DNA of 45,824 nt. Source: a virus. The notes under the pieces are model-generated. The model worked only from the letters and a program-made list of their open reading frames with translations. It did no database searches and had not been told where the DNA came from. Made by a program: the position numbers and the translations under genes. The stretch lies in the IMG/VR virus record IMGVR_UViG_3300045120_000193, positions 1 to 45,824 of that record; one strand, written 5' to 3'. Shown piece by piece: positions 5,376 through 44,327 of this stretch (within the stretch, counting starts at the first letter, position 1; the number at the start of each line of letters is the position of its first letter).

Positions 5376-6161
5376 TTACTTCCTGTGCATCACGGGGTCT
5401 CGTAGTTTGGAAAGATCAATGAGTTTGTGCCCGGTCAAGGGCAACGTTATCACGGCGTCCGGTCGCACTTTGGCTACGTCCTGCGCCGTCATGCCAACCC
5501 ATCTTTCGTCGTCGCCCTTGTAGTTGAACTCTTTAATGGGGATGTCGTCAGCGGTCTTTTCCCCGGTGTCCACGATGTTTTCCTTAAACCGTTCGTCGCA
5601 CGCGCCGATCGCGGCGCCCGCAATGCTGCCGATGCTGCTTATCCCGCTACCGATGAGTCCCGCCTGTTTATTCTGGTTAGCAATCTGCGCTTGGAGATCG
5701 GCGTTCTGCGTGTTTTCAAACAGGCTATAAAGCGGATTGATAAGCTGCGCGAACGAACTGGTCGCAGTCTGCTCGGTTTGCAGTGCTGGCGTGATTAACC
5801 CTTGTTCCTGACTGATTGCCTGATTTAGCCGGTTTTGCCTGAACTGGTCACGGTTGAGAAGTGTCGCGCCTATTGCTTGGTTGCCCATCACGTTGCCGCG
5901 CGCAGCAAACTCAGATCGTGTAGCCTGCGTCACGTCCCGGTTTTGCTCCGGTGTAAGCGCACCTTGATTTTGGATAATGTTCTCAAGCCACGGAGTCGCG
6001 CCCTGCAATGCGCCCGACGCGAGTGTTCTCGATTGGTCAAGGAGCGGCTGTTTGTTGAAGAATGAATTAAACGTGGGAAGCGTTTGACCTTTGAACCCAC
6101 TGTCGATGTTCCCAAGTTCAGGTGTGATATTTGGATTACCCGCGCTAACTGAGCCGCCCAT
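5376..6161 (-). CDS. DNA-transfer-like protein with C-terminal S74-type chaperone motif, 261 aa
   Basis: Residues ~40-150 are Gln/Asn/Ala-rich and helical (RSEFAARGNVMGNQAIGATL), as in phage ejection proteins. A short hydrophobic Gly-rich stretch follows at ~165-187 (GLIGSGISSIGSIAGAAIGA). The C-terminus has the hallmark of the intramolecular chaperone / peptidase S74 family: CDERFKENI at ~188, IKEFNYKGDDERWVGMTAQDV at ~210-230, then a Pro-Asp-Ala turn. In that family the usual start is SDxRxKxNI and the domain sits behind a spike or fibre. Here there is no spike body in front and the domain is short. It overlaps the upstream gene by 17 bases. Ejection protein is the best guess. Confidence 0.8.
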   Translation of the reverse strand: MGGSVSAGNPNITPELGNIDSGFKGQTLPTFNSFFNKQPLLDQSRTLASGALQGATPWLENIIQNQGALTPEQNRDVTQATRSEFAARGNVMGNQAIGATLLNRDQFRQNRLNQAISQEQGLITPALQTEQTATSSFAQLINPLYSLFENTQNADLQAQIANQNKQAGLIGSGISSIGSIAGAAIGACDERFKENIVDTGEKTADDIPIKEFNYKGDDERWVGMTAQDVAKVRPDAVITLPLTGHKLIDLSKLRDPVMHRK

Positions 6162-6531
6162 ATTTACTCCTTGTCGTTGATTCCACTAACCGCACGAACC
6201 GCTTCATGTCGTACACCCGCATCTTGTCCTCGCTACGGCGACAAAAGCAAATCGTGTCCAAATAGCAAGGCAGTAGAGTTAGTAAGTAGCGAATGTCGCC
6301 CACACTGCATCTGATAAACCACGCTGGCTTTTTAGGTTCTCCCTCTTTCGCAAGGTCGATGATCTTAACCATCGCAAAAGCGAGAGGAGTCGAGTAAACG
6401 CACCCGGTTGAAATGTAATCCGCGAGATCAACGAAGAACGGAATCTTCGACCACTTCTCGTACATCGCCATAGCCTCGATGAACGGTTTGTGCCGCGCTA
6501 CGCTCACCCGAATTACAGGCTCAGTTTTCAC
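6145..6531 (-). CDS. Conserved-looking phage protein of unknown function, 128 aa
   Basis: The gene starts at GTG 6531-6529, overlapping the TGA of the 44-residue gene as GTGA. The protein mixes aromatic and basic residues with a hydrophobic centre (YLLTLLPCYLDTICFC). The acetyltransferase-like T7 gp13 family came to mind because of its position beside ejection proteins, but I cannot find the expected CoA-binding signature. It is a soluble protein of unknown role, probably expressed with the tail/ejection genes. Confidence 0.7.
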   Translation of the reverse strand: MKTEPVIRVSVARHKPFIEAMAMYEKWSKIPFFVDLADYISTGCVYSTPLAFAMVKIIDLAKEGEPKKPAWFIRCSVGDIRYLLTLLPCYLDTICFCRRSEDKMRVYDMKRFVRLVESTTRSKYGRLS

Positions 6532-6662
6532 AGTCCGTACGGCGTCAGCGTTTGATGCTTTTGTTTCTTTCCCTTCTTCGCCTTCGGCTTTGGCACCTTC
6601 ATAAACGAAGCAGGATTTTCGTTAATCTTCATCACGCTCGCATGATATTTTTTCGGTTTCAT
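6528..6662 (-). CDS. Small basic protein, 44 aa
   Basis: A very small Lys-rich ORF (MKPKKYHASVMKINENPASF, then a run rich in Lys and Pro). Its ATG overlaps the stop of the 24-residue ORF and its TGA overlaps the GTG of the next gene, so it fits the coupling pattern of the operon exactly. A GGAG sequence lies further upstream. Function unknown; the basic character would suit nucleic-acid binding. Confidence 0.6.
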   Translation of the reverse strand: MKPKKYHASVMKINENPASFMKVPKPKAKKGKKQKHQTLTPYGL

Positions 6663-6733
6663 GTTTTGTCTTTCTTTATTCTCCAAAGAGGTCTGCGTTT
6701 TCTGCTCGCTCTAACCTTGTCGTCTTTAGTCAT
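6659..6733 (-). CDS. Tiny basic ORF, 24 aa
   Basis: It starts 2 bases after the stop of the tail nozzle gene and ends with an ATGA overlap into the 44-residue gene. The product is almost entirely Lys, Arg and Asp with one Trp. It could be a real microprotein or only a re-initiation bridge that keeps ribosomes moving between the flanking genes. Confidence 0.4.
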   Translation of the reverse strand: MTKDDKVRASRKRRPLWRIKKDKT

Positions 6734-6735
6734 AC

Positions 6736-8688
6736 CTAAGCAATCACCTTCACCGTTTCTTCAATCGGTCTTCCTTCAACGCTCACGGAAAGTAAGTCGC
6801 ATTGTCCCTGAGAATTTTCAATCCGTAACGCCAACGCTTTTGCCATTGTGCCGACCGCGAATCGTTCCAGACTTTCCTGCTTGTTCGCGCCAACCGAATC
6901 TTCCAAACTCGCGGGCAACGTGTCAATCGGGCCAGCAGGCCAGTCGTCAAAATCTTCCACGATATAATCGTTTGAACCGCTTCCCTGCGAGTAATCTTCC
7001 CTGAGCGGCTCGTTTGGATCGTCGGTGAGCGGGTTGAAATCCTTGTGCTCAGCCTTGTAGAATTTCAGATGATCTTTCGTAAGATCGCCGTTGGTCAACT
7101 CAATTTCGTCGTTATACCCGTCACGCAGCGCAGTGATTTTAATGGACGGATCGAATGTGCGAATAGAGAGCGTCATCCGTTGATACCGCTTGAACCCGAA
7201 CGGGTTTCCCAGGTTGTAACCGCGTGTTTCGATCACGTCTTGTATCGGGAAATCTTCGCCGCTGATTACGTCTGACAACGAATCGGTGTTCAACTCCACT
7301 ACGCGCCGATTAAAGAAATCAATCGCCAAAACGGATTGGTCGCCTTGAACTTGCAAGACGTGCATAGCGTTAATCCTGAAATCCGAGTCCGGCCACGTAT
7401 CGACGCTCTCCCACATTTTGCTTACGGTATTGTAAACCAACAGCACGTTAGAACCGCCTGCCGCCTGATCTATCGGCACGGCGAAATAAGCGTAATCCCC
7501 GCACGTTACCGCAGCCACTACCCACGGCAGAAACGCGTACTGCCATTCGATGCGTTTGATTATGTCGTCAATCGGCTCGCTCACCGGCACCGGCTCGGTC
7601 GTTATCCGTTGCTGAATGACTTCGCTTAAGCGATAGATTCCCCCTGGCTCGGACAGAAACAACGTGTCGGCTCCGATTAAGACCACCCCTTTTTCAGCCA
7701 TGCAACCGATCTTGGAATTGAGCAGTTGTTGTTCGGTCAGGAACGGGTCAATCGTGAAGTTGGTGACGAGCGCGATTGACTTTTTCATAAACACTACGAC
7801 GCCTTGCTTAAAATACGGCCATAGCCTCGTGATAATGTCTGCGCGCGCAGATTCAACGTTGAACACGCCAAGGATGGGATCGTACGCGGTCCCGTCGAGA
7901 ACGTCGGTCATAATGAATTGGTCGCGCCCGATCTCAAGTTGGACTAGTTCTTGTCTCGGATTATAGAGTAAAAGTCGATTTTCAAACGGCTCTCCGTTGA
8001 ACGTGTTAGGTGTCGGTCCACTGCCCACAGGCGGATACAAAGTCAGTTTTGATCCGTTCGTCCACGTTGTAGGAGTTGTGCCGGTCGCCTGAAAAATCAC
8101 GCCAGTCGCATTAGACGCTGCGCCGACATTCGTGAAATCGTCCCCGGCAACGAAATTCGTAATTATGTAGCGCTGGTCAATGACAAGGCTACCGGATGTC
8201 TGACTGGCAAAGATTACATCGAAAGAGTGCGAAGGATCGCCGTCCCATTCGACCGGGAGATAAGTTGTTATCGGTCGCCTGTGCAACCGTACCTTCGTGA
8301 ACGATTGACTGAACTCGACAGGGCCGGGACCGACAGTCGTATTATCGGGATCGCTAATATCAATCTTGACCGGATCATGCCCGTCCTGGCACGCCCACAC
8401 GTAACTTGAGTTTTGTGTCGCGATTAAGAGCCATTCGCCGCCCATCGCGGTGTTTTGGTAAACGCCAGTGCCGACGATCAACGATTCAAACGCAGGATTG
8501 AAATCTATGGCATCCGCCATGCCACCGCGCGTTTCCGCGCGGCCTGTCCACATCCGCTTGTTCTCGGAGCGCGTCACCATGCCCGGCGCGAGAATCCCTC
8601 GGTCACGGCGCATGTCGATACCCTTAAAAACAACGTCGCCGTCCGCTTGAATCTGCGTGTCGAGTTTCCCGTATGATTGGTATCTCAT
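6736..8688 (-). CDS. Beta-propeller tail nozzle / tail stabilisation protein, 650 aa
   Basis: A long all-beta protein with repeated strands ending in aromatic-rich turns (YVWACQDG, ALVTNFTIDPF, IYRLSEVIQQRI, MWESVDTWPDSDF), the style of the tail-nozzle/tail-hub propellers of short-tailed phages (T7 gp12, P22 gp10 class). The start (QADGDVVFKGIDMRRDRGILAPGM) fits the family, which begins by listing a source term and a constant. Residues ~170-217 hold an inserted unit (DDFTNVGAASNATGVIFQATG) of a type seen in several unrelated phage tail proteins. The neighbours are tail genes on both sides. No tape measure exists in the genome, in line with a short tail. Confidence 0.75.
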   Translation of the reverse strand: MRYQSYGKLDTQIQADGDVVFKGIDMRRDRGILAPGMVTRSENKRMWTGRAETRGGMADAIDFNPAFESLIVGTGVYQNTAMGGEWLLIATQNSSYVWACQDGHDPVKIDISDPDNTTVGPGPVEFSQSFTKVRLHRRPITTYLPVEWDGDPSHSFDVIFASQTSGSLVIDQRYIITNFVAGDDFTNVGAASNATGVIFQATGTTPTTWTNGSKLTLYPPVGSGPTPNTFNGEPFENRLLLYNPRQELVQLEIGRDQFIMTDVLDGTAYDPILGVFNVESARADIITRLWPYFKQGVVVFMKKSIALVTNFTIDPFLTEQQLLNSKIGCMAEKGVVLIGADTLFLSEPGGIYRLSEVIQQRITTEPVPVSEPIDDIIKRIEWQYAFLPWVVAAVTCGDYAYFAVPIDQAAGGSNVLLVYNTVSKMWESVDTWPDSDFRINAMHVLQVQGDQSVLAIDFFNRRVVELNTDSLSDVISGEDFPIQDVIETRGYNLGNPFGFKRYQRMTLSIRTFDPSIKITALRDGYNDEIELTNGDLTKDHLKFYKAEHKDFNPLTDDPNEPLREDYSQGSGSNDYIVEDFDDWPAGPIDTLPASLEDSVGANKQESLERFAVGTMAKALALRIENSQGQCDLLSVSVEGRPIEETVKVIA

Positions 8689-9467
8689 CGTGAACGCAAG
8701 AACCCGCGCGAATGGATTCTCAGACGGCTAGAATGAAACGGCCAATAAAAGAAAAAACTGTCAGGGAGTGAACTCATTGAAATCGTGGCTGTAGTCCGAA
8801 CCGTTCCAGACCACGTTTCCAGTAAAGACAATAATGCGTCATCTGTAGGCGCGATAGAAAACGCCATGTCGCACGAGTGAACATCGTTGGCTATCACGTC
8901 CACGGTTATCATGTTGCTGCTCGGATTATTTCTTTTTAACCTGAACCCGAGCGCCGTGCAGTAACCGCCGGCATTGGAAGGGTCTTGAACAAAATGCTGT
9001 TCCCAACCGGCGTTCTCGGAAACCTTCGATTGAAATCCCTGCACAACCATCAGTCCACAGAAGTTTAATCCCGAAGCAGTCGGTCGCCAGTAATAAGCGT
9101 TGTCTGTGCCTACGGCAATGTCGCTGCTTACAAGTTTACCGTCACCGCCATGCCAGCTCGGAGGCGCAAAAGCATGAGCGTTCGTGAATCCGATAAACGA
9201 TGTTGCGCCCGCAAAGGGAAACGCTTCCCCGTCGCTCTTTAATCCGAGCCAATAACAATCGTACGGTCCGGGAACACTGGAAATGGTTTCAGATAAAGTC
9301 GTTGGATCATCGTCGTTAGCGGCTCTGGTGATACTCAGGAAAAATCCAATCCGCAAATCCGTCCACGCTCCGGCCGCAAACTTCTGTCGAATCGCCGTGC
9401 GAATGTTCGGGATCACGATGTGATCGTTCGGCGTTGCTGTCTTAATGTAAACTTTGCCTCTGCTCAT
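8685..9467 (-). CDS. Putative tail/fibre-associated protein, 260 aa
   Basis: Not assigned to a family. It is beta-rich with many Gly, Ser, Trp and Asp residues and reads like a jelly-roll or lectin-like structural protein: DCYWLGLKSDGEAFPFAG at ~90, AYYWRPTASGLNFCGLMVVQG at ~125-145. The start overlaps the stop of the 56-residue gene (ATGA) and the stop overlaps the nozzle start (ATGA). It may decorate or extend the tail. No enzymatic motif is visible. Confidence 0.7.
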   Translation of the reverse strand: MSRGKVYIKTATPNDHIVIPNIRTAIRQKFAAGAWTDLRIGFFLSITRAANDDDPTTLSETISSVPGPYDCYWLGLKSDGEAFPFAGATSFIGFTNAHAFAPPSWHGGDGKLVSSDIAVGTDNAYYWRPTASGLNFCGLMVVQGFQSKVSENAGWEQHFVQDPSNAGGYCTALGFRLKRNNPSSNMITVDVIANDVHSCDMAFSIAPTDDALLSLLETWSGTVRTTATISMSSLPDSFFFYWPFHSSRLRIHSRGFLRSR

Positions 9468-9634
9468 CTTGGTGGACTTATCACAGCCGGTTGAATTGTC
9501 ACGTCGCCGTCAATGTCGTCGCCAGTTAATTCGCTGCCGTCCTCCAATGGCATTGCGTCAATCGTGAACCAATCATTCGTAATGTGCGCGTCAACGCTGT
9601 ATAAAAATCCTTTGTAAAGTCGGACGGCTGGCAT
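9464..9634 (-). CDS. Small acidic protein, 56 aa
   Basis: The ORF starts directly after the TAA of the 249-residue gene and ends in an ATGA overlap with the 260-residue gene. The product (MPAVRLYKGFLYSVDAHITN...) is acidic, with two beta-strand-like segments and a Pro-rich end. It belongs in the operon by position. Function unknown; it might be a small tail component. Confidence 0.6.
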   Translation of the reverse strand: MPAVRLYKGFLYSVDAHITNDWFTIDAMPLEDGSELTGDDIDGDVTIQPAVISPPR

Positions 9635-10384
9635 TTATCCTGCCCCTCTGTAGCGCGGCACTTGCGCGGGTTGCTGGTCGGTAAGCGAATCATACGGTGG
9701 AGCAATTTTGGCTTGAAGCGTTTCCGACATTTCACCGAGCGCACCCTGTTCTTCGACCTGGCCTTTGTCAGTTTGCCCCTCTGTTCTCAGCATGTCCGAA
9801 TACGCTCCGCGCACGACTTGGTTTGCTAACGCTTGCGGGAACGGCACGAGACTCCAATTCGTCGTGTCGCCCACCGGGAAATTATTCAAGTTGGTGTCCG
9901 CAAGGCTCGCGTAACATTCGCCGTCGCCGCCTATGGTGTCTGGCACGTAAACGAGATCACCGACCGAATAGGTCGAACTCGAATCCCACAGTTCCCCGGT
10001 AAATTGCGGTTCGCGTTTGATGAAACGTATCCAGACTGTTGCCCCGTGATCGTACCCGCAATGGACACCCTGATCTTGTAATGTGAACGGCGTATCGACG
10101 GGAGCAGCGTTGGACGTGCGCGGATCTATCAGAAACACTTTCAGAACTCTGCCGAGTGGCGTTTGATTCGCTTGATCGTATCCGACGATGTGATTCGTCG
10201 GCATCCGTTCTTCGATCAACGTCCACTCAGGAAAATCGGCTTTATCCCATAGTCGTCGCACCCAAAGATTGATGAACACTATCATCGCAGCCATCTGGTT
10301 CGACTGAAAATCTCGCACTGGATCGAGCCCGACTTTGAATGCTGTCGGATGCAAAACCCCAGTTTGAAAGTTTACCGTCCTCAT
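9635..10384 (-). CDS. Putative head-tail connector-region protein, paralogous module with the 502-aa adaptor
   Basis: A region around residues 85-215 resembles part of the adaptor-like gene at 12604-14112. Both have a VW(I/V)(R/K)F core, then a short loop and a (Y)(S/G)(V/I)G(D/E)xV strand followed by CY, a Pro turn and SW or NWS, and then a helix with GAY(S/A)DM or GAYADLM. The (Y)xxGDxV...CY...W pattern also recalls small carbohydrate-binding folds of the chitin-binding type. The N-terminus is helical (ADFPEWTLIEERM region). A structural role in the neck or tail is inferred from position and paralogy. Confidence 0.7.
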   Translation of the reverse strand: MRTVNFQTGVLHPTAFKVGLDPVRDFQSNQMAAMIVFINLWVRRLWDKADFPEWTLIEERMPTNHIVGYDQANQTPLGRVLKVFLIDPRTSNAAPVDTPFTLQDQGVHCGYDHGATVWIRFIKREPQFTGELWDSSSTYSVGDLVYVPDTIGGDGECYASLADTNLNNFPVGDTTNWSLVPFPQALANQVVRGAYSDMLRTEGQTDKGQVEEQGALGEMSETLQAKIAPPYDSLTDQQPAQVPRYRGAG

Positions 10385-10755
10385 ACTTCTTCAACGCTAA
10401 TCCAATGCACTGTGCGCGTGTCTGCGTTGTCGCTGCTTTTAATGTCGAACGAAGCACCAACCACGATATTTTCAATGTCCAATGCGCCGGTTGATCCTGA
10501 GCCAATAGGTGTCGCTACGATCCGTGATTGAGCCGTAACCCATGTCGCCGTCACTGTCTTTGTACCTGCAACCAATACTGCGGTGCCTTTCTTCACGAGA
10601 TTATCAATGTTGGCCTGCAACACATCATGCAACGATTGAAGCTCGGCCGTTAATTGGTCGGTCAACGTTTTAGCCGACGCAGGGTTTCCGCCAGTAGTCG
10701 GCAGGGTTTGAAACCCCATCAGGATTCGTTTCCTGTTTTCGAGAACTAACGTCAT
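10381..10755 (-). CDS. Phage structural-region protein of unknown function, 124 aa
   Basis: Helical N-terminus (residues ~25-60, AKTLTDQLTAELQSLHDVL), then a compact beta part (GTAVLVAGTKTVTATWVTAQSRIVATP) typical of fibre or decoration tips, ending in VHWISVEEV. Stop and start overlap both neighbours. The beta part resembles C-terminal pieces found in phage fibre proteins. Not assigned to a family. Confidence 0.65.
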   Translation of the reverse strand: MTLVLENRKRILMGFQTLPTTGGNPASAKTLTDQLTAELQSLHDVLQANIDNLVKKGTAVLVAGTKTVTATWVTAQSRIVATPIGSGSTGALDIENIVVGASFDIKSSDNADTRTVHWISVEEV

Positions 10756-10952
10756 GGAGTCGGTGTCGCGGTAGCCGTTGGCGTGCTCGTGGACGAAGGC
10801 GTAGGCGTGACGATGACGACCTTTATCGGCTGCTCAACGATTTTGCTTTGAACAGGGAAGTTCTTCGGATTCGTCACGATCACGCCGCCTTGCTGTCCGT
10901 AAACGCCAAGGGCAATAAATGGAAGGATGAGAATAAGTAGGATGGTTTTCAT
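10752..10952 (-). CDS. Small secreted Thr/Pro-tailed protein, 66 aa
   Basis: A clear Sec signal peptide (MKTILLILILPFIALGVYG, likely cleavage near GQQ) is followed by about 25 residues with strand-like IVVIV segments. The C-terminal end is a Thr-Pro/Ala-Thr tract (TPTPSSTSTPTATATPTP). It is the third signal-peptide protein in a row (after 12603 and 12007). I recognise no domain. It probably leaves the cytoplasm. Confidence 0.65.
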   Translation of the reverse strand: MKTILLILILPFIALGVYGQQGGVIVTNPKNFPVQSKIVEQPIKVVIVTPTPSSTSTPTATATPTP

Positions 10953-10960
10953 GGTTGGTT

Positions 10961-12007
10961 TTAATCTATCTCTGAATAGGAAATTTCTCTAGCTGCCGGA
11001 GTGACTGTGACTGTTGGCGTGGCGGTAGCTGTTGCCGTGGCTGTTGGAGTCGCAGTGGCCGTCGCGGTAGGCGTTGACGTTGGGGTGGACGTAGGGGTAG
11101 GCGTGCTCAATGCAGCGGAGGCCCCACTCTCAAGAACGTTCAAAAGCAGGTTGTCAAAAGCGAGAATATCGTAGCCACCTCCATTCCAGTGAATACGCCC
11201 AGTACCAATACCGATCTCGCTTGTTACCAAAACATCCCCTTCAAGCCCGGTAAAGTCGGTTGACGGAAATTTGTAGATTTTATCTAGGTCAACTACAGCG
11301 ATGTAAAACGGGAGGATTGGATTCGGTATTACGCTCAGTTGCTCGGGGCCAGCCCAATCAACTATTTCTGTAGTGATCGTGCCTACATTATCAATCGCCG
11401 TGACCCAACTATTGTCGTTGTCTGCTACAAGAATCTGACCGGCGTAAGTGCCAAAAGTGGTAGGTGCTACCGCTGGACCGCGCGTAAACGCAGCAGTGTC
11501 AGCTATCAAACCGACAGTTCCATTCGACAAAACCTTCTCAACTTTTCCGCCTTGGCACGTCACGATCATGTTGTTTCCAAACGTTCCAACCTGATCGAAC
11601 GTGATCCCCGATTCGTCGTCTGTGCAATCCGTCACCGTAGTGAAAAGAGTCGCGCTGCCAGCCGATACTCTAAAGATTTGTTTGCCCCGAATTACAAAAA
11701 TCGTGCCGGGCGTCCATGCTGGCGTTGCGGATGCGGACGCAGGAGGAGCTACAGCAATCTCTTTCTCTCCGCAGAATGGCGTTGGACTAGGACTCGGGAG
11801 ATTAGCAAAGAGAGTCACGTTACCACTAGAATCCACTTGATCGACATTTTCAGTACAGTTGTGGGTGATTAATAGCTTACCATTTGACACTCCGACTCCG
11901 TTGGGAGCGGTAGCAGATGCGAACGGAGTTGGGTTTGCGGGATAAACCGATCCTGCGACCGTTAGTAGTCCGAGCGCTGTCACGATAGTTTGCGTGCGTC
12001 GTTTCAT
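10961..12007 (-). CDS. Secreted beta-propeller-like protein with C-terminal Thr-Pro/Ala-Thr tract, 348 aa
   Basis: I place the start at ATG 12007, which overlaps the stop of the upstream gene (ATGA) and opens with a Sec signal peptide (MKRRTQTIVTALGLLTVAGS). Residues ~35-290 hold repeated strand/turn units of propeller type: NGVGVSNGKLLITHNCTENV, FGNNMIVTCQGGKVEKVLSNG, YAGQILVADNDNSWVTAIDN. These resemble NHL/SMP-30-like propellers. Residues ~300-336 are an almost pure Thr/Pro/Ala/Ser tract, and a short polar tail follows. It looks like an extracellular protein placed among virion genes, which is unusual. Ligand unknown. Confidence 0.7.
   Translation of the reverse strand: MKRRTQTIVTALGLLTVAGSVYPANPTPFASATAPNGVGVSNGKLLITHNCTENVDQVDSSGNVTLFANLPSPSPTPFCGEKEIAVAPPASASATPAWTPGTIFVIRGKQIFRVSAGSATLFTTVTDCTDDESGITFDQVGTFGNNMIVTCQGGKVEKVLSNGTVGLIADTAAFTRGPAVAPTTFGTYAGQILVADNDNSWVTAIDNVGTITTEIVDWAGPEQLSVIPNPILPFYIAVVDLDKIYKFPSTDFTGLEGDVLVTSEIGIGTGRIHWNGGGYDILAFDNLLLNVLESGASAALSTPTPTSTPTSTPTATATATPTATATATATPTVTVTPAAREISYSEID
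10998..11106 (-). repeat. Thr-Pro/Ala-Thr coding tract
   Basis: About 36 codons of ACN, GCN and CCN (with some TCN) encode the C-terminal tract of the secreted propeller-like protein. Third codon positions vary, so the DNA is not a simple short tandem repeat and the pattern appears to be kept at the protein level. Confidence 0.8.
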
Positions 12008-12603
12008 TTGAACGCCAGCGTGATCTCTACGTATGTCGCGGTTGAAATTCCAGACAGGTTCACAGCTAGATTGTCGGCCGGCGTTATCATCGTTGAAGTC
12101 CAACTGCTTAAATCGTTGGACAAGTTTTCAACGTTGCTCGCAATCGCAGGTTTCGTTCCCGCTCCCACGATACTCACAGTCGGAAGTCCAGCGCCGTTCG
12201 CTGACCTGTAAATATCCACGGTGACTGAGCCGGACGGTTTACACGTCATTGTCCAGCCTCGGAGCGTACCGCCGATAGGAATTTTGACAGGATTTTTCGT
12301 GCCTGTCGTGAGCACCGATCCCGATCCGTCCACGTAAAGCGTGATTAAATGCAAGAGCCCGACCGTGTTGGTATCGACGTAATTGATGTCCCACGGCAAA
12401 GGCGTTGGTGCGGGAATGGGAACTTTTACCTTATGATTTTTGGTGTCGATGTTGATCGGCTCGTTTGATCCGCCGCGTGTTGCCGTAGGCGTTGGAGTGG
12501 GCGTATTCGTTGAGCTGGCTGTCGCGGTAGCCGTTGGCGTGGGAGTCGGTGTCGCCAACGCAGACGAAGCAATCACTATCAAAAGCAAAATTAGACGTTT
12601 CAT
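12004..12603 (-). CDS. Fibre-tip-like domain protein with Sec signal peptide and Thr-Pro tract, 199 aa
   Basis: Signal peptide at residues 1-17 (MKRLILLLIVIASSALA), then a Thr-Pro/Ala-Thr tract at ~18-42. The C-terminal domain (~85-199) has the pattern of a common phage fibre or receptor-binding tip: IPIGGTLRGWTMTCKPSGSV, then TVDIYRSANGAGLPTVSIVG, a TKPAIAS turn, LSSWTSTMITPADNLAVNLSG and a final VEITLAFK strand. In other phages this domain caps tail fibres that have no signal peptide. Here it follows a cleavable-looking leader, suggesting export to the host envelope. Domain recognition is from memory of the family pattern. Confidence 0.75.
   Translation of the reverse strand: MKRLILLLIVIASSALATPTPTPTATATASSTNTPTPTPTATRGGSNEPINIDTKNHKVKVPIPAPTPLPWDINYVDTNTVGLLHLITLYVDGSGSVLTTGTKNPVKIPIGGTLRGWTMTCKPSGSVTVDIYRSANGAGLPTVSIVGAGTKPAIASNVENLSNDLSSWTSTMITPADNLAVNLSGISTATYVEITLAFK
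12480..12555 (-). repeat. Thr-Pro/Ala-Thr coding tract
   Basis: This tract encodes residues ~17-41 of the fibre-tip-like protein, directly behind its signal peptide. It uses the same Thr, Pro and Ala alternation as the tracts near 11050, 43040 and 43290, with different codon choices. Confidence 0.75.
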
Positions 12604-14112
12604 TTAATCAATCCTAGCCCAGTACTTATTGTTGCTCGTGCTGTCGTAATCGAGCGGCCGCACCTGCCCCGGATCATCGTCTTCAGCGTTCCCCAGCATC
12701 AACCGATATTCCTGGTTCTGAAATTCTTGTCCCGGATAATTAGGGTCAATCACGATCTTGGCAACCTGGTGCAGCGGCAAACCTACCGTCACGATTTCAT
12801 CCAGCGCAGGGGAAGCTGTCGCGCGGCGTAACGCTACAATGTCTGGATAATAAATCTCGTATGGCAACGGCGGACTTGGCGGCGTTGGTGTAGCGATCGG
12901 TGTCGCAGCTCCGCCTGTATCCCTTCTGTGGCACCGTAGAGCTTTGATACTGAAAAACATCTTCTTACCTTCAGCCATGTCCCGATCTATCTCAGCTAAA
13001 AGAATGTTCATTGCTTCGGCTTCTGCCATTTGCGCCATGCCAAGGCGTTGACTGTAATCGGTGACACCTTTCTCCATGTCGCGCATCAAATCCGCATACG
13101 CTCCGGCCGTAACGTACCGCTGAAATCTTTCAGGGAACTCGATCACCGCCCAAGATTCGCTCGGAGGCGGATCTGCGTTTGTGCCTGAAATCTTGACGTA
13201 ACAATTCCCGTCGGTGTGCAAAAACACGCGCTCTCCGATTCCATACGTCCTGTTGACGTACGGCAGCATGGTGAAAATCGGCGGCGGCGGTTTGAATTTC
13301 ACCCATGCAACTGTGGGGATTGGTGGGCAGGAACAGTAGGAAATGTCAATGCCGCGTGTGGACGGATGAAACCCTAATGTGCGAGCACGATGATTATCTC
13401 TCGGATTATCGGTGTAAATCTGTGTGACCTGAGCGATGGGCGTTTGAAACGGTTGCTCGTACTCAAGGTAAACGTCGCGCAACGGAGTGATGTTTTGCCA
13501 GAAATTCGTGTCGGTAATCGGCGTACCGCCAAGAACAGGTTGCAAAGCCTGATAATATCCGGGGTCAGTATTGGTATCACCGCCGAAATAAACCTGCGTG
13601 TCGGTGTCGTATCGCAGATCGTCCTGCCAAATCTGTCGCCACGCGCGTTCTTCAAGTAACGATATGAAGCGCCATTCCCACGCAAACCACATCGAATAAA
13701 CCCGGTCGTTGATGTGTTCGACCAAGTTTTTTACCGTAGCGGAATTGATCTCGGAGTCCGAAGGATCTAGGCCGGTGCGCCGCATTATTCTGTCCAAAAC
13801 AGATTTGAACTTAACCGTTCGCCCCGGCAGAATCGGTATTCGTGAAGCGGCAGCTAATGCCGTCAGTTTTGCTTCCGCTGCCGCCGCAAGGAGATACTGG
13901 CCAGGATTCCAGTTGGTAACGTCGGTTACGTCGTATGCAACGATTTCCTCTGCGCCATCTGGCGGCTCCGCTACAAACCGAAACTCAGGGAACGTGACAT
14001 CAGGTTGCGTAATCCCTGTGCTCTGCTCCGGCCCATAAGCGCCTGCGACCAGCCATTTGTAGCGAACATTCGCAAGAACAGTTCCCGGCTGTAATGGAAT
14101 TGTGAGGATCAT
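12604..14112 (-). CDS. Probable head-tail adaptor protein, 502 aa
   Basis: The beginning is a Fn3-like beta region (LANVRYKWLVAGAYGPEQ). Residues ~100-165 are helical with KSVLDRIMRRTGLDPSDSE and NLVEHINDRVYSMWFAWEW, the helix pattern of P22 gp4/T7 gp11-class adaptors. Residues ~220-390 hold the module shared with the 249-residue protein: a WVKFKPPPP core, YGIGERVF, a CYVK strand and a GAYADLMRDMEKG helix. A short Pro/Thr linker (ATPIATPTPPSPPLP) then leads to a C-terminal part with AKIVIDPNYPGQEF. It is encoded soon after portal, scaffold and capsid, as adaptors usually are. Larger than typical adaptors because of the added domains. Confidence 0.65.
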   Translation of the reverse strand: MILTIPLQPGTVLANVRYKWLVAGAYGPEQSTGITQPDVTFPEFRFVAEPPDGAEEIVAYDVTDVTNWNPGQYLLAAAAEAKLTALAAASRIPILPGRTVKFKSVLDRIMRRTGLDPSDSEINSATVKNLVEHINDRVYSMWFAWEWRFISLLEERAWRQIWQDDLRYDTDTQVYFGGDTNTDPGYYQALQPVLGGTPITDTNFWQNITPLRDVYLEYEQPFQTPIAQVTQIYTDNPRDNHRARTLGFHPSTRGIDISYCSCPPIPTVAWVKFKPPPPIFTMLPYVNRTYGIGERVFLHTDGNCYVKISGTNADPPPSESWAVIEFPERFQRYVTAGAYADLMRDMEKGVTDYSQRLGMAQMAEAEAMNILLAEIDRDMAEGKKMFFSIKALRCHRRDTGGAATPIATPTPPSPPLPYEIYYPDIVALRRATASPALDEIVTVGLPLHQVAKIVIDPNYPGQEFQNQEYRLMLGNAEDDDPGQVRPLDYDSTSNNKYWARID

Positions 14113-14483
14113 GGCTTATCCACAAAAAGCTCCGGCGCTTTACGCCTCGTGTCCGCTACCCAATCAGGATCGTTCCAATGCCCCGGTCCGTAGCGCGCGG
14201 TGAAATCCGCTTCGATCACCGGATCGACTACCGCTATCCTTCGGATCTGTCCGGGTTTCTTTAGCTTCTCCTGTTCAATAGCGGCCGCGCGCAATTCCCG
14301 TTGGCGTTTTATCGCAGCTTCTTGCTCGTAAACCGCGAGAGCTTTAAGAAAATCTCGCCAAGCTTGCGCTTCATCGCACTTGGAATGAAGCACCCAATCT
14401 TCAACGATCGGGTCTTGAACACCCGCGCTGCGTAGCATTAACGCTATCTGAACAGAAAGAGGATCGCCAACTTTCTCATTCAC
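14109..14483 (-). CDS. Small phage protein of unknown function, 124 aa
   Basis: Helical and charged in the first 80 residues (AVYEQEAAIKRQRELRAAAI), with a C-terminal motif ARYGPGHWNDPDWVADTRRKAPEL similar to ends seen in other phage hypothetical proteins. Start and stop are coupled to the neighbours (the stop at 14109 overlaps the adaptor ATG). It could be a head-completion or scaffold-related protein. Not assigned. Confidence 0.65.
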   Translation of the reverse strand: MNEKVGDPLSVQIALMLRSAGVQDPIVEDWVLHSKCDEAQAWRDFLKALAVYEQEAAIKRQRELRAAAIEQEKLKKPGQIRRIAVVDPVIEADFTARYGPGHWNDPDWVADTRRKAPELFVDKP

Positions 14484-14768
14484 TTAGGGAGTCGGCGTTG
14501 CTGTTGCAGTGGCAGTGGATGAGGCTGAAGGGGTTGCAGTTGCAACGAGTCCAGCAGAGGCTAATGCGGCTTCCAAACTGGCGGCCGTCAATGAACCAGT
14601 TATGATCGGCTTCGGAATCGGTGTCGCACCCCAATACCCGATTTTGTCAGTTGTTTTCTGACCGATGTGCGTACCGTTCACCCCTTCAAAAATGTGGTTC
14701 GTTTGCGCGAATAGCATTAGCGGTATTCCAACCCCTACGATGAGAATGAACGGAGCTTTGAAACGCAT
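14484..14768 (-). CDS. Secreted short fibre-like protein with Thr/Ala/Pro tail, 94 aa
   Basis: The signal peptide is MRFKAPFILIVGVGIPLMLFAQ. Residues ~35-75 carry a motif common in phage head and tail fibres: IGQKTTDKIGYWGATPIPKP, then a turn and a short helix (AASLEAALASAGLV). The last ~20 residues are Ala/Thr/Ser/Pro only. In other phages the TDKIGFFG-like motif ends or joins virion fibre proteins. Its combination with a leader and a Thr-Pro tail matches the other exported proteins of this block. Confidence 0.7.
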   Translation of the reverse strand: MRFKAPFILIVGVGIPLMLFAQTNHIFEGVNGTHIGQKTTDKIGYWGATPIPKPIITGSLTAASLEAALASAGLVATATPSASSTATATATPTP

Positions 14769-15247: not shown

Positions 15248-16357
15248 TTAAGTGCTGGTTGTCTGCAAAACGTTCGGGTCAACTTTCATGTGGCCCCGTG
15301 GATCGCCGTAGGCGAGTCCGAGCAACGACTGAATCAGTCCTCGCGGTCCCGCGCCTTTGTCTTCCAACGGCATGTAAGTCAGCCATTTTCCGCTCGGGCG
15401 AATCGCCACCTTCGTCATGTCGAGGAAATATCCTCGACCGGCGACCGCACTAGGGTCGGTTACGACAGTGCTAGGTCTGCGCGGCATGAAACTCATCAGC
15501 TTCACCTGAATCACGCCGAAATCGGTTTTCAGGATGTCCGCTCCGTAAAGAGCGTACTCTTTCATGGTGATCGCTTCCTGCGGAGTGCGTGCGACCGCTG
15601 TGTATCCTCGGACGTTCTCTTCGTACCGCCCGGAAAGATATTTGCTGAAATGCGTTTTCAGAGTCGAATCGCAGTAGCAGGTCAGATCGGTCTGTTGCCC
15701 AACGTTGTCGAATCGGCTTTTTACCATTGCTATCAGAACGGCTTCACTGAAGGTAGGCGTGATTTCCCCGGAGCCGTTAATGTCGGTCAACGGGCCAACG
15801 TAAATCTGCGCAGTAGGCGTTCGGAAAAGTGGATTGATGGAGGTCTGCGTATCCCCGAAAGGCAGTGCGGCGTTTGAGCTTCCGATGCTGGTGGTGTCGT
15901 TGATGATACGGCCGAGCCCCATGAACTCGCGTCCCTGCGCTACGCCGTCGTCGGTTTTGCTATCGTTATCTGACGCGATGCGCTTCTCGATTTTGCGCTT
16001 CATTTCGACCGTTTTGTTGACGATCTCTTTTCGCTGTTTTCCGAAGTCCGCGACCGTCACGTTGATGTCATTGGATTCCATCGTGACGTGGGGCAAACCC
16101 CAAAACTTCATCGTCCGATTGTAAAGCTGGTACTGCTTGTTCCCCTCGAATTGATCGGCGTCCTTGTTCTCGGGAATACCTACCGTGTCGTAGTTGTCGG
16201 TGTACTTCTCTACTTCCCACGAAAACAGATCGACGTTCTTGATGCGCTCGCCTTGTCTTAAATCTTTGAGAAGAGGCGTGTCGCGCGCGTCGATGTTCAG
16301 ATAGACATCGCTAATGTCCTCCCTCACGATTTCGTCTTTGGTTGTTACTGCTGGCAT
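15248..16357 (-). CDS. Major capsid protein (DUF5309/SU10-like), 369 aa
   Basis: It opens with VYLNIDARDTPLLKDLRQGE and then FSWEVEKYTDNYDTVGIPE. This matches the start of DUF5309/SU10-type capsids: an Asp-Thr-Pro, then a Trp-containing strand about 20 residues on. A long helix follows at ~105-130 (KQRKEIVNKTVEMKRKIEKR, the spine helix of the HK97 fold), then FMGLGRIIND. Later parts include YVGPLTDING and TYMPLEDKGAGPRGLIQS at the C-terminus. Length and position between the scaffold and a head protein are as expected. Confidence 0.85.
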   Translation of the reverse strand: MPAVTTKDEIVREDISDVYLNIDARDTPLLKDLRQGERIKNVDLFSWEVEKYTDNYDTVGIPENKDADQFEGNKQYQLYNRTMKFWGLPHVTMESNDINVTVADFGKQRKEIVNKTVEMKRKIEKRIASDNDSKTDDGVAQGREFMGLGRIINDTTSIGSSNAALPFGDTQTSINPLFRTPTAQIYVGPLTDINGSGEITPTFSEAVLIAMVKSRFDNVGQQTDLTCYCDSTLKTHFSKYLSGRYEENVRGYTAVARTPQEAITMKEYALYGADILKTDFGVIQVKLMSFMPRRPSTVVTDPSAVAGRGYFLDMTKVAIRPSGKWLTYMPLEDKGAGPRGLIQSLLGLAYGDPRGHMKVDPNVLQTTST

Positions 16358-36328: not shown

Positions 36329-36610
36329 TTACGGTTTTTTGTTCAAGGGCAGGAACTCGTTATCAATCTTGCGCCACTGGCTACCATCGGCATCAATCCA
36401 GACGCCAAGCGGACTGTCGCCGTATCTCCATACGCGATACCGAGAATTGCCTGAATCGCCCTTTCGCCAGTCGTAATGCCGGTATGCGATTGCGCCCGGA
36501 TGGTTGCTCGTGGTGTAACACCCTGAGAATACCAAGAAAAGCGCGATGAGATATTTACCTGGAAGGAACAAAGTGCGTAGCACAACTCCCAAAGGTAACG
36601 ACGATTTCAT
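36329..36610 (-). CDS. Putative lipoprotein, 93 aa (last gene of the late block)
   Basis: Frame opens MKSSLPLGVV and has a signal-type hydrophobic run ending in a lipobox-like FSGC (KYLIALFLVFSGCYTTS). A later TTG could be the real start, because the ATG lies inside the upstream small gene. Mature part is polar with YRHYDWRKGD and WIDADGSQW. It might be a spanin-like outer-membrane partner, given its place among lysis-region genes, but this is inference. Confidence 0.5.
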   Translation of the reverse strand: MKSSLPLGVVLRTLFLPGKYLIALFLVFSGCYTTSNHPGAIAYRHYDWRKGDSGNSRYRVWRYGDSPLGVWIDADGSQWRKIDNEFLPLNKKP

Positions 36611-36674
36611 ATGCAACCACAGCCACAACAATTATCAAGATTGTCGCCAGAATGTACGTCCAGTCGTATTTCAT
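36555..36674 (-). CDS. Small membrane protein, 39 aa
   Basis: ATG 36674 overlaps the previous stop (ATGA). One membrane helix (YILATILIIVVAVVAYEIVV) with a short polar tail. It overlaps the beginning of the lipoprotein frame by about 56 bases, so the two may be an overlapping pair, as i-spanin/o-spanin genes often are. This resemblance is positional only. Confidence 0.5.
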   Translation of the reverse strand: MKYDWTYILATILIIVVAVVAYEIVVTFGSCATHFVPSR

Positions 36675-39512: not shown

Positions 39513-39736
39513 TCGACTGCTGTGGCTTTTGGCAATGGCGGTATCTCAATCTGAAATCCGCCGTCCACGACTTTTAGCTTTGCTCCGTTAAGGCGATCCA
39601 ATGCGCCGTGGATAATTCCGCCAAAACGATTCTCGATGTCGGCGGAGATTGGTGCGATTTGCTGGACAATCTGATTAGCGGCGGTCTGCGCGTCCGTAAT
39701 GGATTTGCCAGCGCCAAGAAAGTCCAGAAGAGACAT
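39509..39736 (-). CDS. Small phage protein, 75 aa
   Basis: MSLLDFLGAGKSITDAQTAA start, then a Gln-rich helix, then LKVVDGGFQIEIPPLPKATA. Overlaps the previous gene's last base. The beta end suggests a small virion or accessory protein. Unknown function. Confidence 0.6.
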   Translation of the reverse strand: MSLLDFLGAGKSITDAQTAANQIVQQIAPISADIENRFGGIIHGALDRLNGAKLKVVDGGFQIEIPPLPKATAVE

Positions 39737-40122
39737 CAGGTTTTAGTAATGAAGGGGAACGCACCGGCCTCAAGACCTTTACCAATCGCGGTCAACGCCG
39801 ATTTCCCGTACGTCTGATACACCAAACTGATCGTTGTCGTAATTGTCGCTGTTATCAGCGGATATTTGTCCTGAACATCCTTCGGGATGAACGCCAACAC
39901 CTTCGTAATTAACTCTTGCACCGTAGGCGTACCGTCTATCGAGTAAACTGCCTTCGCGGCCGCATCTAGGTAATTAGCCAGCGGCGTATGGAACTCTACC
40001 GGAACGTGGGTGATCGTTTCGGTAACAGCAATCTGAACCGCGTTCGTGATTTGCTGGTCTGAATTGGCGCATCCGTTGAGGAACAGCGCGACGGCGATTA
40101 TTGGAGCGATTAAGTTTTTCAT
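39736..40122 (-). CDS. Lipoprotein, 128 aa
   Basis: ATG 40122 (MKNLIAPIIAVALFLNGCAN) gives a lipobox LNGC. The mature part is helical with PLANYLDAAAKAVYSIDG and KDVQDKYPLITATITTTISL. Similar lipoproteins are seen near holin-like genes. The longer upstream frame is not needed. Confidence 0.65.
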   Translation of the reverse strand: MKNLIAPIIAVALFLNGCANSDQQITNAVQIAVTETITHVPVEFHTPLANYLDAAAKAVYSIDGTPTVQELITKVLAFIPKDVQDKYPLITATITTTISLVYQTYGKSALTAIGKGLEAGAFPFITKT

Positions 40123-40127
40123 TGGTT

Positions 40128-40343
40128 TCAAAAACTGAATGTGTAGTAACCCAAGATGCCGAAAAGGATGATCTGAATAAACGCGGTCCCATAAACGACG
40201 TTTGGGTTGTCCCATTTAGGGACCGTTCCGATTGCCCACAAGATCAATAGTATCCAGAAGATGATCTTCGGCATAAATGAGCCAGAGCTTTCATTACCGT
40301 GAATTTGCGCGAACGCTGTTACTAATGTCAATAATGTTCCCAT
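40128..40343 (-). CDS. Small multi-pass membrane protein, 71 aa
   Basis: Two to three hydrophobic helices (MPKIIFWILLILWAIGTVP, AFIQIILFGILGYYTFSF) and a polar loop (KWDNPN). A holin candidate by size, membrane content and neighbours; not proven. Confidence 0.55.
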   Translation of the reverse strand: MGTLLTLVTAFAQIHGNESSGSFMPKIIFWILLILWAIGTVPKWDNPNVVYGTAFIQIILFGILGYYTFSF

Positions 40344-41328: not shown

Positions 41329-41403
41329 TTATTTTATGTTCCGCAGTTGAATATCAAGTAACCCACAGCAATTCCGCCAAAGTGCGATAAGCGGTTTCAT
41401 CAT
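41329..41403 (-). CDS. Tiny ORF after the fibre gene, 24 aa (uncertain)
   Basis: ATG 41403 overlaps the fibre stop, and the TAA is 3 bases before a GTG of the next gene. Product MMKPLIALWRNCCGLLDIQL followed by a few residues. Could be a bridge ORF or a microprotein. Confidence 0.35.
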   Translation of the reverse strand: MMKPLIALWRNCCGLLDIQLRNIK

Positions 41404-44327
41404 TGTGCGTAAAATCCGAACACAAAAACGTTGCCAGTAACAGTTGTGCTGGTTGTCCATGCGGTCGTAATTGAAAACTGCACTTTATTGCCTGCCGCGC
41501 ACATGACAAATGGACCCGAATTGGCTAGAGCCGCATATTGAGGCCAGGCTTTCGTTGTAAGCGGACTGGTGGACGTAGATGCTGTTGCCGCTGTCATTGC
41601 ACCACTAGCACCACTTTCAATTATTTTCCACACAATCGCGATGTTAGCACCACTCGTAATAGAAGTCGGAATTATCCAAGCATCTCTAACAACAAACGTC
41701 CTACTCGTTGGCACAGTAAATATGTCGGTCGTGCCATTGGCTTGGAAGTTCACACCGGATTTGAACGCGACGACCGGCAAACCTACTGCAACAAATGCGG
41801 GAGCGACCCCTGTTGCCGTGGCCGCGCTTAGGCTTGTGAAGGTAGTGTGATCTGCTGCGGACATTTCTCCTGTTACAGAATCCGTCGCAGCGGACATATT
41901 ACGACCGTCACCCGATGCTGGTGTTCCGAGAACTGGCGTAACCAAAGTCGGACTTGTAGCTCTGACGAAATTGCCTGTTCCAGTCCCAGTGTATTCTGCC
42001 GAGGTTAGATGATAATACTGCCCAGAGCTTCCACCTTGTATATTTGCAAGATCGTTATGATTTTGAACGGAGTTGGATGAAAACGTTGTCGTGAAAACAG
42101 TTTGAGTGGCAGCCGGAGCGTTCACCCCTTGTTGGATCACTAATCTTCCGATCAACATGCCCATTGCCTGAATACGCGGAGGAACTGCGCTCGGAACAGT
42201 GTCTCCTAATCCTAAAGCAAGCGAAACGAATTGGTTTTGACCGTACACCATCGCCAATGTGCCGTCAGTCATCAGATAAAACCATCGCGACGAATAGTCG
42301 AGCACGGTCAAATTAGCCAGAGTGCCACTGCTGTTGTCGTATTTAGTGACATCGTATTGCGTTTGCGCAGCCTGCTTTGTCCAGCCGCCAGAACCGTCAC
42401 GGTAGTAAGCGTCGAACGTTCCTGAACCAGACGTGTCGATAGCGGTAATCGCAAACTCGCTCATCCTGTCCATCAGTGATCCTGCGCTGACGGTTACGTT
42501 TCGCGTTCCAGTTGTTCCAAGGATAAGACCGCCCAAGCGATTGTCGCGAGCAATGTTCGCCAACGAATCAAATCGTTCGATCAGATTGGTTTGATTGTCG
42601 CCTGTGTTCCACGTGTTGTTGACGATGTAGCGAGTTCCACCTTCGTTCACGCATATCCCCAATGGAAATTCCGTGTCGTAGTCCCACGAATCAGACGTTT
42701 TCGCGACTACGTTCGGAGTTCCTGCGTTGTATTGAACACCGATGTATCGGACGGTGTTTGATGGAACTGAGAGTGCTGTTGAGGCCGACCAGTTGAAAAA
42801 CGACTGCGTTGCTACATTGGAATCCGTTGCCTTAATGAATCCTGTTCCTGCCGCAACATCTACTGCGTTAGCTGTGCCTGACGCCGTGATAGTACCACCA
42901 GACCATGAGCCAGTTGACATTGCAGCATTAAAGAAGTGTTGAACGGTCGAGTAAGTTGGTGTCCCGATTGTGGAGAGTTCAGGAGTCGGGGTCGCTGTTG
43001 GCGTAGCTGTAGGAGTCGGCGTTGAGGTACTTGTGGACGTTGCTGTTGGAGTCGAAGTTGGAGTTGGGGTGAACGTTGATGTCGCAGTCGGTGTAGGAAC
43101 AGTCAGCGTGATCGTGTCGGTTGATGCGTTGGTTGTGGCTGATATATTTCCAACGGTGTTGATATTCAACGTATCCGAATCACTATCGGCAACCACGTCA
43201 CTTTGACCTGGTATGGAGATGGTCTTGAAGATGGATAGCGGAGTGGCCGTTGCCGTCGCGGTTGGCGTTGAAGTTGCCGTTCCACTTGGTGTGGCTGTCG
43301 CTGTGGCGGTCGCTGTTGGGGTGGGAGTTGGAGTTGGTGAACTGAACACTAACCCATCAGCGGTCGCGTTTACAATTACATGCCTTCCTGCGAATCCTGA
43401 GTAACTGTTTGGAACGTCAGACAAATTTGTGAATGGTATTCCGGTAAGTTGAGAACCGTCACCAACAAAAGAACCGCCATTAAAGAAATCTCCGGTAAAT
43501 TGTTCCGCGTGAGCATTGGCGTGAACCGTCGAGTTACTTGCTTGAAATCCACAATAAATATCACTGACCTCCTGATTCCCAAGTGTGATTGTATTGTCAT
43601 CGTTAGAAGTTGCATTTTCTCCTATAGCTACAGAATGAACACCGCCCGCCGTAGCCGACTTTCCAATGGCTACCCCGCCAGGATCACGAACAAGAGCCAA
43701 TGCGCCTAGGACTGTTCCATTTGAAGTATCTCCCTCTAAGTCTGAATTAGCACCTATACAGGTATTATTGTCTCCAGTATTATACGCAGACCCCGAATGT
43801 ATTCCAAGACTGGTATTGTACGATCCTGTGGTGACAACGTTCATTGCGTACCAACCAACAGCCGTGTTATTTTTGCCTGTGGTAATGGTCTCTCCCGCAA
43901 TCGCTCCTAAAAAGGTATTTGCAGTATTGTTACCGCCTGCTGGTGAAGGATCACTGAAATGAATCCTTCCCACTTCAACTGAGCTACCATCTATAATCAG
44001 GATTTCTGGACTGTAAGTTGTTGTTTTAAGGGTCAATTTCTTTGCGGAATTGTCCCACTTAAGATTATCACTACCACCGATACTTGTTCCGACTCCAAAT
44101 GCCACCTGCTGATCTGCTATGCTGCCGCCGATGCCGCCGCCTGCTGCGTTTTGATTTTCCCATTTGCCGGTGACGCTGTTAAAGGTGAGAACCTGAGTAT
44201 TCGTGGGTGACGTAATGCTTACATCTCTGAGCAGTGAGAGTTTATCGACTGGCGGGCGTGGAGCTTGGGCTAATACGAATCCCAAAGTCACAAACCAAAT
44301 GACCGCGATTGTCCTACTAATCTTCAT
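41400..44327 (-). CDS. Large fibre protein with Sec signal peptide, YadA-like head repeats and Thr-Pro tracts, 975 aa
   Basis: ATG 44327 overlaps the previous stop and gives a Sec signal peptide (MKISRTIAVIWFVTLGFVLA). Residues ~35-120 form a short beta start; ~136-250 hold YadA/Hep-Hag-like repeats (NTFLGAIAGETITTGKNNTA, NTSLGIHSGSAYNTGDNNT, GVAIGKSATAGGVHSVAIGE). Thr-Pro/Ala-Thr linkers lie at ~330-362 and ~409-448. The rest is beta-rich with fibre units (RYIGVQYNAGTPNVVAKTSD) and a C-terminal jelly-roll-like tip ending VFVFGFYAQ. A bacterial-adhesin layout in a phage fibre gene. No autochaperone motif is seen. It may be a tail fibre or an exported surface protein. Confidence 0.75.
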   Translation of the reverse strand: MKISRTIAVIWFVTLGFVLAQAPRPPVDKLSLLRDVSITSPTNTQVLTFNSVTGKWENQNAAGGGIGGSIADQQVAFGVGTSIGGSDNLKWDNSAKKLTLKTTTYSPEILIIDGSSVEVGRIHFSDPSPAGGNNTANTFLGAIAGETITTGKNNTAVGWYAMNVVTTGSYNTSLGIHSGSAYNTGDNNTCIGANSDLEGDTSNGTVLGALALVRDPGGVAIGKSATAGGVHSVAIGENATSNDDNTITLGNQEVSDIYCGFQASNSTVHANAHAEQFTGDFFNGGSFVGDGSQLTGIPFTNLSDVPNSYSGFAGRHVIVNATADGLVFSSPTPTPTPTATATATATPSGTATSTPTATATATPLSIFKTISIPGQSDVVADSDSDTLNINTVGNISATTNASTDTITLTVPTPTATSTFTPTPTSTPTATSTSTSTPTPTATPTATPTPELSTIGTPTYSTVQHFFNAAMSTGSWSGGTITASGTANAVDVAAGTGFIKATDSNVATQSFFNWSASTALSVPSNTVRYIGVQYNAGTPNVVAKTSDSWDYDTEFPLGICVNEGGTRYIVNNTWNTGDNQTNLIERFDSLANIARDNRLGGLILGTTGTRNVTVSAGSLMDRMSEFAITAIDTSGSGTFDAYYRDGSGGWTKQAAQTQYDVTKYDNSSGTLANLTVLDYSSRWFYLMTDGTLAMVYGQNQFVSLALGLGDTVPSAVPPRIQAMGMLIGRLVIQQGVNAPAATQTVFTTTFSSNSVQNHNDLANIQGGSSGQYYHLTSAEYTGTGTGNFVRATSPTLVTPVLGTPASGDGRNMSAATDSVTGEMSAADHTTFTSLSAATATGVAPAFVAVGLPVVAFKSGVNFQANGTTDIFTVPTSRTFVVRDAWIIPTSITSGANIAIVWKIIESGASGAMTAATASTSTSPLTTKAWPQYAALANSGPFVMCAAGNKVQFSITTAWTTSTTVTGNVFVFGFYAQ
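42982..43100 (-). repeat. Thr-Pro/Ser/Ala coding tract
   Basis: Encodes residues ~409-448 of the fibre, built from Thr, Pro, Ala and Ser codons only. Third positions vary as in the other tracts. Confidence 0.75.
43241..43338 (-). repeat. Thr-Pro/Ala-Thr coding tract
   Basis: Encodes residues ~330-362 of the fibre, a linker between the repeat-rich part and the next domain. Same amino-acid alphabet as in the secreted proteins near 11000-14800. Confidence 0.75.

Follow-up and report, generated by a model that had tools for sequence, protein, structure and literature searches.

Sec-type leaders on fibre-like proteins of an uncultured phage and their possible route out of the host cytoplasm

An uncultured environmental phage, and with it several unrelated uncultured ones, probably sends a group of fibre-like proteins out of the cytoplasm of the infected cell, something for which standard phage assembly gives no account. 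We base this on the window, by which we mean the whole 45,824-nt (45.8-kb) uncultured virus record IMGVR_UViG_3300045120_000193 of IMG/VR. Its five proteins of this kind begin with Sec-type leaders, fibre domains are present among them, the combination recurs in unrelated phages, and the leader has been gained or lost between orthologues; all of this can be read from the sequences. Tail fibres set the host range of a phage, and it is taken for granted that they are mounted on the particle inside the cytoplasm. Leaders that come and go on otherwise ordinary fibres of several unrelated phages would point to an unrecognised phage use of host export, either for late completion of the virion outside the cytoplasm or for a secreted arsenal of adhesins. 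Current annotation pipelines flag neither, and both are directly testable.

Five leader-bearing proteins

A sequence-only reading of this DNA had picked out five ORFs, and all of them are present where it placed them, on the minus strand (Table 1). The four small ones lie in the interval that separates the major capsid gene from the second tail-adaptor gene, and the capsid gene context places them in the virion block. The 975-aa ORF is about 29 kb further on in window coordinates, beside lysis-type genes. ATGA overlaps between start and preceding stop codon are seen at 12007 and 44327, and again at 10755, where the gene after the 66-aa protein begins; these overlaps fit tight gene packing. For some starts a clear ribosome-binding site is absent. 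Two other ORFs, at 39736-40215 (near the lysis-type genes) and 36329-36631, have lipoprotein-like N-termini (LNGC and FSGC) and are possible spanins or exclusion lipoproteins.

Table 1. Leader-bearing proteins of the window and the genes used to interpret them.
Feature	Position	Strand	Context or match
94-aa protein: leader 14706-14768, GTHIGQKTTDKIGYWG core, Thr-Pro tail 14487-14546	14484..14768	-	two genes downstream of major capsid gene
199-aa protein: leader, Thr-Pro tract 12478-12555, INIDTKNHKVKV motif, C-terminal knob 12007-12357	12004..12603	-	
348-aa protein: leader, possible NHL-type repeats, four Cys, Thr-Pro tract 10991-11107 near C-terminus	10961..12007	-	
66-aa protein: leader 10896-10952, short GVIVTNPKNFPVQSKIV core, Thr-Pro tail 10755-10820	10752..10952	-	
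975-aa tail fibre: leader 44268-44327, YadA-head-like repeats ~43575-43649, Thr-Pro spacers 43239-43349 and 42981-43103, phrog_5668 domain 42081-42956, C-terminal knob-like end	41400..44327	-	beside lysis-type membrane genes
Major capsid protein	15248..16357	-	24% identity to major head proteins of phage C75C1 and phiM5; 81% to G001
502-aa tail-adaptor-like protein, left edge of variable fibre cassette	12604..14112	-	57% to G001 322-aa protein
124-aa leaderless protein, candidate ordinary virion fibre	10381..10755	-	K1-lyase_C domain at C-terminus
261-aa leaderless protein, S74 chaperone domain, second candidate ordinary virion fibre part	5376..6161	-	Peptidase_S74 E 1e-8

We scored leaders with a rule of three parts: basic residues in the n-region, 8-14 residues that are hydrophobic and carry no charge, and small residues at -3 and -1. 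The rule and the choice of starts at other loci are our own, and the leader of L182 and some cleavage sites were read by eye. At a score >9.5 the rule recovered 11 of 12 textbook Sec signals, and without any cut it passed 2.8% of shuffled N-termini. By this score the signal peptides that had been claimed are there on all five proteins, and each shows all three elements: a basic n-region, a hydrophobic core free of charges, and small residues at the cleavage site. The putative sites are LFA/QTN, ALA/TPT, AGS/VYP or YPA/NPT, VYG/QQG and VLA/QAP, of which ALA/TPT and YPA/NPT were read by eye while the script preferred ATA/TAS and AGS/VYP. None of the five has a Cys at +1 (lipobox), so they are not lipoproteins, and no sorting or anchor motif was seen at their C-termini.

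How often would such leaders be expected? For comparison we retrieved 80 phage loci through a fibre motif shared with the 975-aa protein. At a slightly lower cut, leaders were found on 0/74 of their fibres with a complete 5' end. Across the same tail-region loci 6/623 ORFs of at least 100 aa scored >9.5, and none of the six is a fibre. The fibres of three cultured phages with partial similarity (DLP6, Leeuwenhoekiella Arctus_1 and ctfne034) also have no leader. Such leaders are thus rare among comparable phage genes, and by sequence a Sec-type leader on a fibre-like protein in the virion block is an unusual combination.

The fibre assignments differ in strength. The 975-aa protein matches the tail fibre family phrog_5668 with E 8e-38. 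Phage fibre motifs had been reported for two of the small proteins. That of the 199-aa protein stands, because its IPIGGTLRGWT/LSSWTS knob matches phrog_35197 (E 1e-7) and phrog_10330, a 'virion structural protein' family (E 0.0027); the 94-aa TDKIGYWG protein has no family match, and we would call it a 'head fibre' only by inference. No fibre or virion-structural family was matched by the 94-, 66- and 348-aa proteins. For the 348-aa protein, matches to Pfam NHL (E 0.015, 15.7 bits, where the Pfam cut-off is 20) and to TRIM2 NHL (E 0.006 over 49 residues) hint weakly at a beta propeller. Structure models were too poor to use (pLDDT 49, and 37 for the 348-aa protein).

Long Thr/Pro/Ala tracts are present in all five proteins, as the sequence-only reading had described. 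They follow the leader in the 199-aa protein, lie at the C-terminus of the 94-, 66- and 348-aa proteins and separate domains in the 975-aa protein. Most synonymous codons are used within them, and a check for DNA repeats found just short, imperfect arrays. The varied codons indicate that the tracts are kept at the protein level and are not simple DNA repeats. Among 38 other viral ORFs picked solely by a TPTATATATP tract, 14 have leaders, compared with the 6/623 above (Fisher p 1e-14); since this set is tract-picked, includes proteins of the type studied and has some contigs that may hold host DNA, it gives an association and not a phage-wide leader rate. Phage proteins also have tracts with no leader, such as a 748-aa fibre of the close relative discussed below, so the tracts look like a general fibre spacer. 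In the beta-helix family that we come to later, the two tract-bearing members have the tract where the leaderless member in L177 has a short Gly/Ser linker, before the conserved C-terminal end. A spacer role fits the Thr-Pro tracts, and the glycan acceptor proposed in the sequence-only reading is conjectural.

Relatives with and without the leader

The close relative, G001, has 81% identity to the window in the capsid and 77% in the portal, and the capsid, adaptor and tail genes that flank the leader-bearing genes are conserved in it. A 367-aa protein (44695-45798), 72% identical to part of a 486-aa G001 protein, is also among the best conserved. G001 keeps the 94-aa protein at 70% identity with both leader and tail, although the cleavage site is poorer there, and this conservation of the leader supports the 94-aa start. 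Between the two adaptor genes the window has the 199-, 348- and 66-aa proteins with leaders, whereas G001 has leaderless fibres of 138, 585 and 748 aa. The leader-bearing genes therefore sit at fibre positions. Within this cassette the core of the 66-aa protein has 52% identity over 27 residues, a short match, to the leaderless 138-aa protein, and no relative of the 348-aa protein was found in G001.

The first 53 residues of the 124-aa protein (10381-10755) are 51% identical to the start of the 748-aa G001 fibre, which makes it look like a minimal fibre, with a fibre-type N-terminal domain joined to K1-lyase_C. The 748-aa fibre (L002:15476-17722) has a signal-like hydrophobic stretch at residues 84-102, behind an 80-residue N-terminal domain, and a 586-aa fibre (L003:6582-8342) has one at residues 105-127 that ends SANA/Q. 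Both look like leader-bearing fibres that were fused behind another domain.

The same architecture, which the sequence-only reading had suggested looking for in other phages, does recur in unrelated ones. The knob at the end of the 199-aa protein recurs on three fibres elsewhere: a leader-bearing one of 511 aa in G005 (L179), an otherwise unrelated phage (66% identity), a leaderless one of 453 aa in G004 (L177; 63%) and a leader-bearing one of 234 aa in L124 (49%). The window, G004 and G005 have little else detectable in common: an exonuclease (window and G005), a small domain and the knob. The C-terminal part of the 502-aa adaptor-like protein is 34% identical to a 107-aa protein of G005. The L124 protein consists of a leader, then a standard N-domain with which the ordinary leaderless fibres of L041 and L051 begin, then the knob; its neighbour is a leader-bearing 529-aa right-handed beta helix with a Thr-Pro tail. 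G005 has a pair of this type (511 and 515 aa) with leaders on both. In L177 both members of the pair (453 and 481 aa) lack a leader, and the two further proteins after them have one. The motif INIDTKNHKV follows the Thr-Pro tract in the window's 199-aa protein, its counterpart VMIDTKTHKI directly follows the leader in G005, and a related motif occurs in the 530-aa leader-bearing fibre of L177.

Beyond these, clusters of two to five leader-bearing proteins occur in L182, L183 and L186, and leader-bearing proteins are also encoded near capsid and portal genes (L122, L162) or near tail-type genes (L118, L146). In L122 a Cys-rich C-terminal domain is duplicated: the final 82 residues of a 1002-aa leader-bearing protein (6463-9471) recur at 57% identity in the 111-aa leader-bearing protein (6140-6475) next to it. 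We considered the 204-aa leader-bearing protein after the L122 capsid gene as a decoration protein and dropped it because it has no Pfam or PHROG match. In G005 a protein matching major head proteins (L198:5739-7307, phrog_334) has a signal-like hydrophobic N-terminus if the longest start is used. Cultured phages yielded no close relative of the 199-aa protein, the L124 fibre or the queried leader-bearing proteins of L179, L182 and L186, and the weak matches covered just part of one protein. In the part of the open-access literature that we searched there was no description of Sec-exported tail fibres, and such an absence is not proof.

Leader change can be followed best in the beta-helix family encoded beside such fibres. 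Five of its 11 phages have the leader and 6 do not, counting L182, whose leader failed the automatic cut and was accepted by eye. On a tree of the leader-trimmed proteins, well-supported branches force at least two leader changes, and leaders cluster more tightly than in most shuffles (25/500 were as low). When L124 and L179 are aligned with L177, the leader is added exactly at the N-terminus, with M-AYTEYYC in the leaderless protein and ...SFA/ATYTEFYC in the others. Gain or loss of the leader between orthologues is thus visible in the sequences. We also tried to argue for periplasmic folding from disulfides and gave this up, as Cys counts do not separate leader-bearing from leaderless members.

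We looked for signs of the host as well. Gln is exposed at three of the five predicted cleavage sites (14484-14768, 10752-10952 and 41400-44327) and in several leader-bearing proteins elsewhere, including those in L122 and L163. In this small sample, Gln at +1, as in the Q-rule of Bacteroidetes (cited in PMC10367356), might hint at the host group. A portal search of bacterial genomes found nothing. The beta-helix family matched in bacteria one Opitutaceae MAG, with a leaderless relative, and had no other match in 388 further genomes of that MAG's phylum. We rejected Thr-Pro tracts as a mark of a Verrucomicrobiota host, since the DNA pattern was in just 1/368 genomes of that phylum.

Where the exported proteins may act

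We favour a reading in which virion-type fibre modules have gained a Sec signal peptide and would be made with the virion proteins in late infection. The modules would be exported across the inner membrane, where the leader would be cleaved and the fibres would fold. The leader-bearing proteins would most likely be the phage's own receptor-binding fibres together with small decorations, kept in the periplasm, and these stored fibres would join particles when the cell lyses; the Thr-Pro tracts would be stiff or extended spacers. Tailspikes and fibres are able to attach to finished particles outside the cell, as in P22 and T4. Export, cleavage and above all joining at lysis are steps that we infer, and we give this reading of Sec-rerouted receptor binders a probability of roughly 40%. 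It corresponds to the alternative of the sequence-only reading, that the leader helps to assemble or secrete virion fibres, and we rank it first.

A virion role is favoured by the fibre domains, by the fibre positions and by the possibly incomplete contigs G005 and G009, where leaders are present on all large proteins whose composition resembles that of fibres, a rough criterion. In G005 these are two proteins only, one of which matches tail fibre families. Against a virion role, the window keeps two leaderless candidate fibre parts, of 124 and 261 aa. Leaderless fibres are also found in G004, G006 and L183, and the proteins with leaders may thus come in addition to those of the virion.

The strongest competitor is that the exported proteins work outside the virion, on the host cell or its surroundings. 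They could sit on receptors or hide them, bind surface polysaccharide or cleave it, or stop progeny from sticking to debris, with the tracts as surface spacers. We think this quite possible, if less probable than not. Leaders on all five proteins agree with it, as do the arrays of different adhesin-like proteins in L182 and L186, and the leaderless candidates in G004, L183 and the window could serve the virion. T5 Llp, an exported receptor-blocking lipoprotein, is a precedent (PMC9586334). However, no outer-membrane, lipoprotein or C-terminal sorting signal explains how the proteins would arrive at the surface before lysis, and their location among late virion genes suits a virion role. The version in which the phage copies its own receptor binder has found no support so far: leader-bearing and leaderless proteins have no sequence in common in the window and no common domain in G004, G005 or G009, and the one case of sharing within a genome is a YadA-like stretch in G006. 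The leaders on every large fibre-like protein of G005 and G009 also fit the phage's own fibres better than decoys. We therefore rank joining the virion at lysis slightly above a role in the host envelope, as somewhat more likely. The wider proposal, in which a set of uncultured phages uses host Sec export for the fibres that bind its receptors and for its decorations, and completes the particles outside the cytoplasm, at lysis and not before, is tentative and in our judgement less likely than not.

It is unlikely that the leaders play no part in export and are either hydrophobic ends that belong to virion proteins or remnants taken up when fibre modules were exchanged. The 94-aa protein of G001 would suit this, with a leader that has no good cleavage site, and so would the 748-aa G001 and 586-aa L003 fibres, whose internal stretches could not act as ordinary signal peptides. 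But n-region, core and cleavage site are all kept across unrelated leader sequences, five in the window and many elsewhere, as working signals should, and leaders begin exactly at the start of leaderless orthologues. Very improbable explanations are chance, misassigned start codons and a contig that contains host DNA: some starts have no clear ribosome-binding site and several TP-tract contigs look like host or non-coding matches, but starts overlap upstream stops, the 94-aa leader and the flanking capsid, adaptor and tail genes are conserved with G001, and the base rates are 0/74 and 6/623.

Comparison with known systems

With known tail fibres and tailspikes the window proteins share families (phrog_5668 for the 975-aa protein, virion-type families for the 199-aa knob), the gene position of the G001 fibres and, in related clusters, beta-helix and knob fibres. 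They differ in that all five have a leader, which is lacking in DLP6, Leeuwenhoekiella Arctus_1, ctfne034 and the 74 metagenomic fibres.

Exported phage proteins encoded beside receptor-binding or tail genes are known. In T5 the receptor-binder gene has as its neighbour the gene for Llp, an exported lipoprotein that acts from the periplasm to block the receptor (PMC9586334), and Lom of lambda is a related exported phage protein (PMC12309495). Of these two, Llp is small and a lipoprotein, Lom is a barrel of the outer membrane, and neither is made of fibre domains. The window proteins have no lipobox, in contrast to exclusion lipoproteins of the Llp/Cor type. Sec signals also occur in phages of Porphyromonas gingivalis, among others on certain genes of unknown function and on some capsid proteins, whose leaders are thought to be removed by the prohead protease (PMC10367356). 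The likeness to the window lies in the Sec signals on phage genes, and the difference is that the unknown genes there are not described as fibre-like (PMC10367356).
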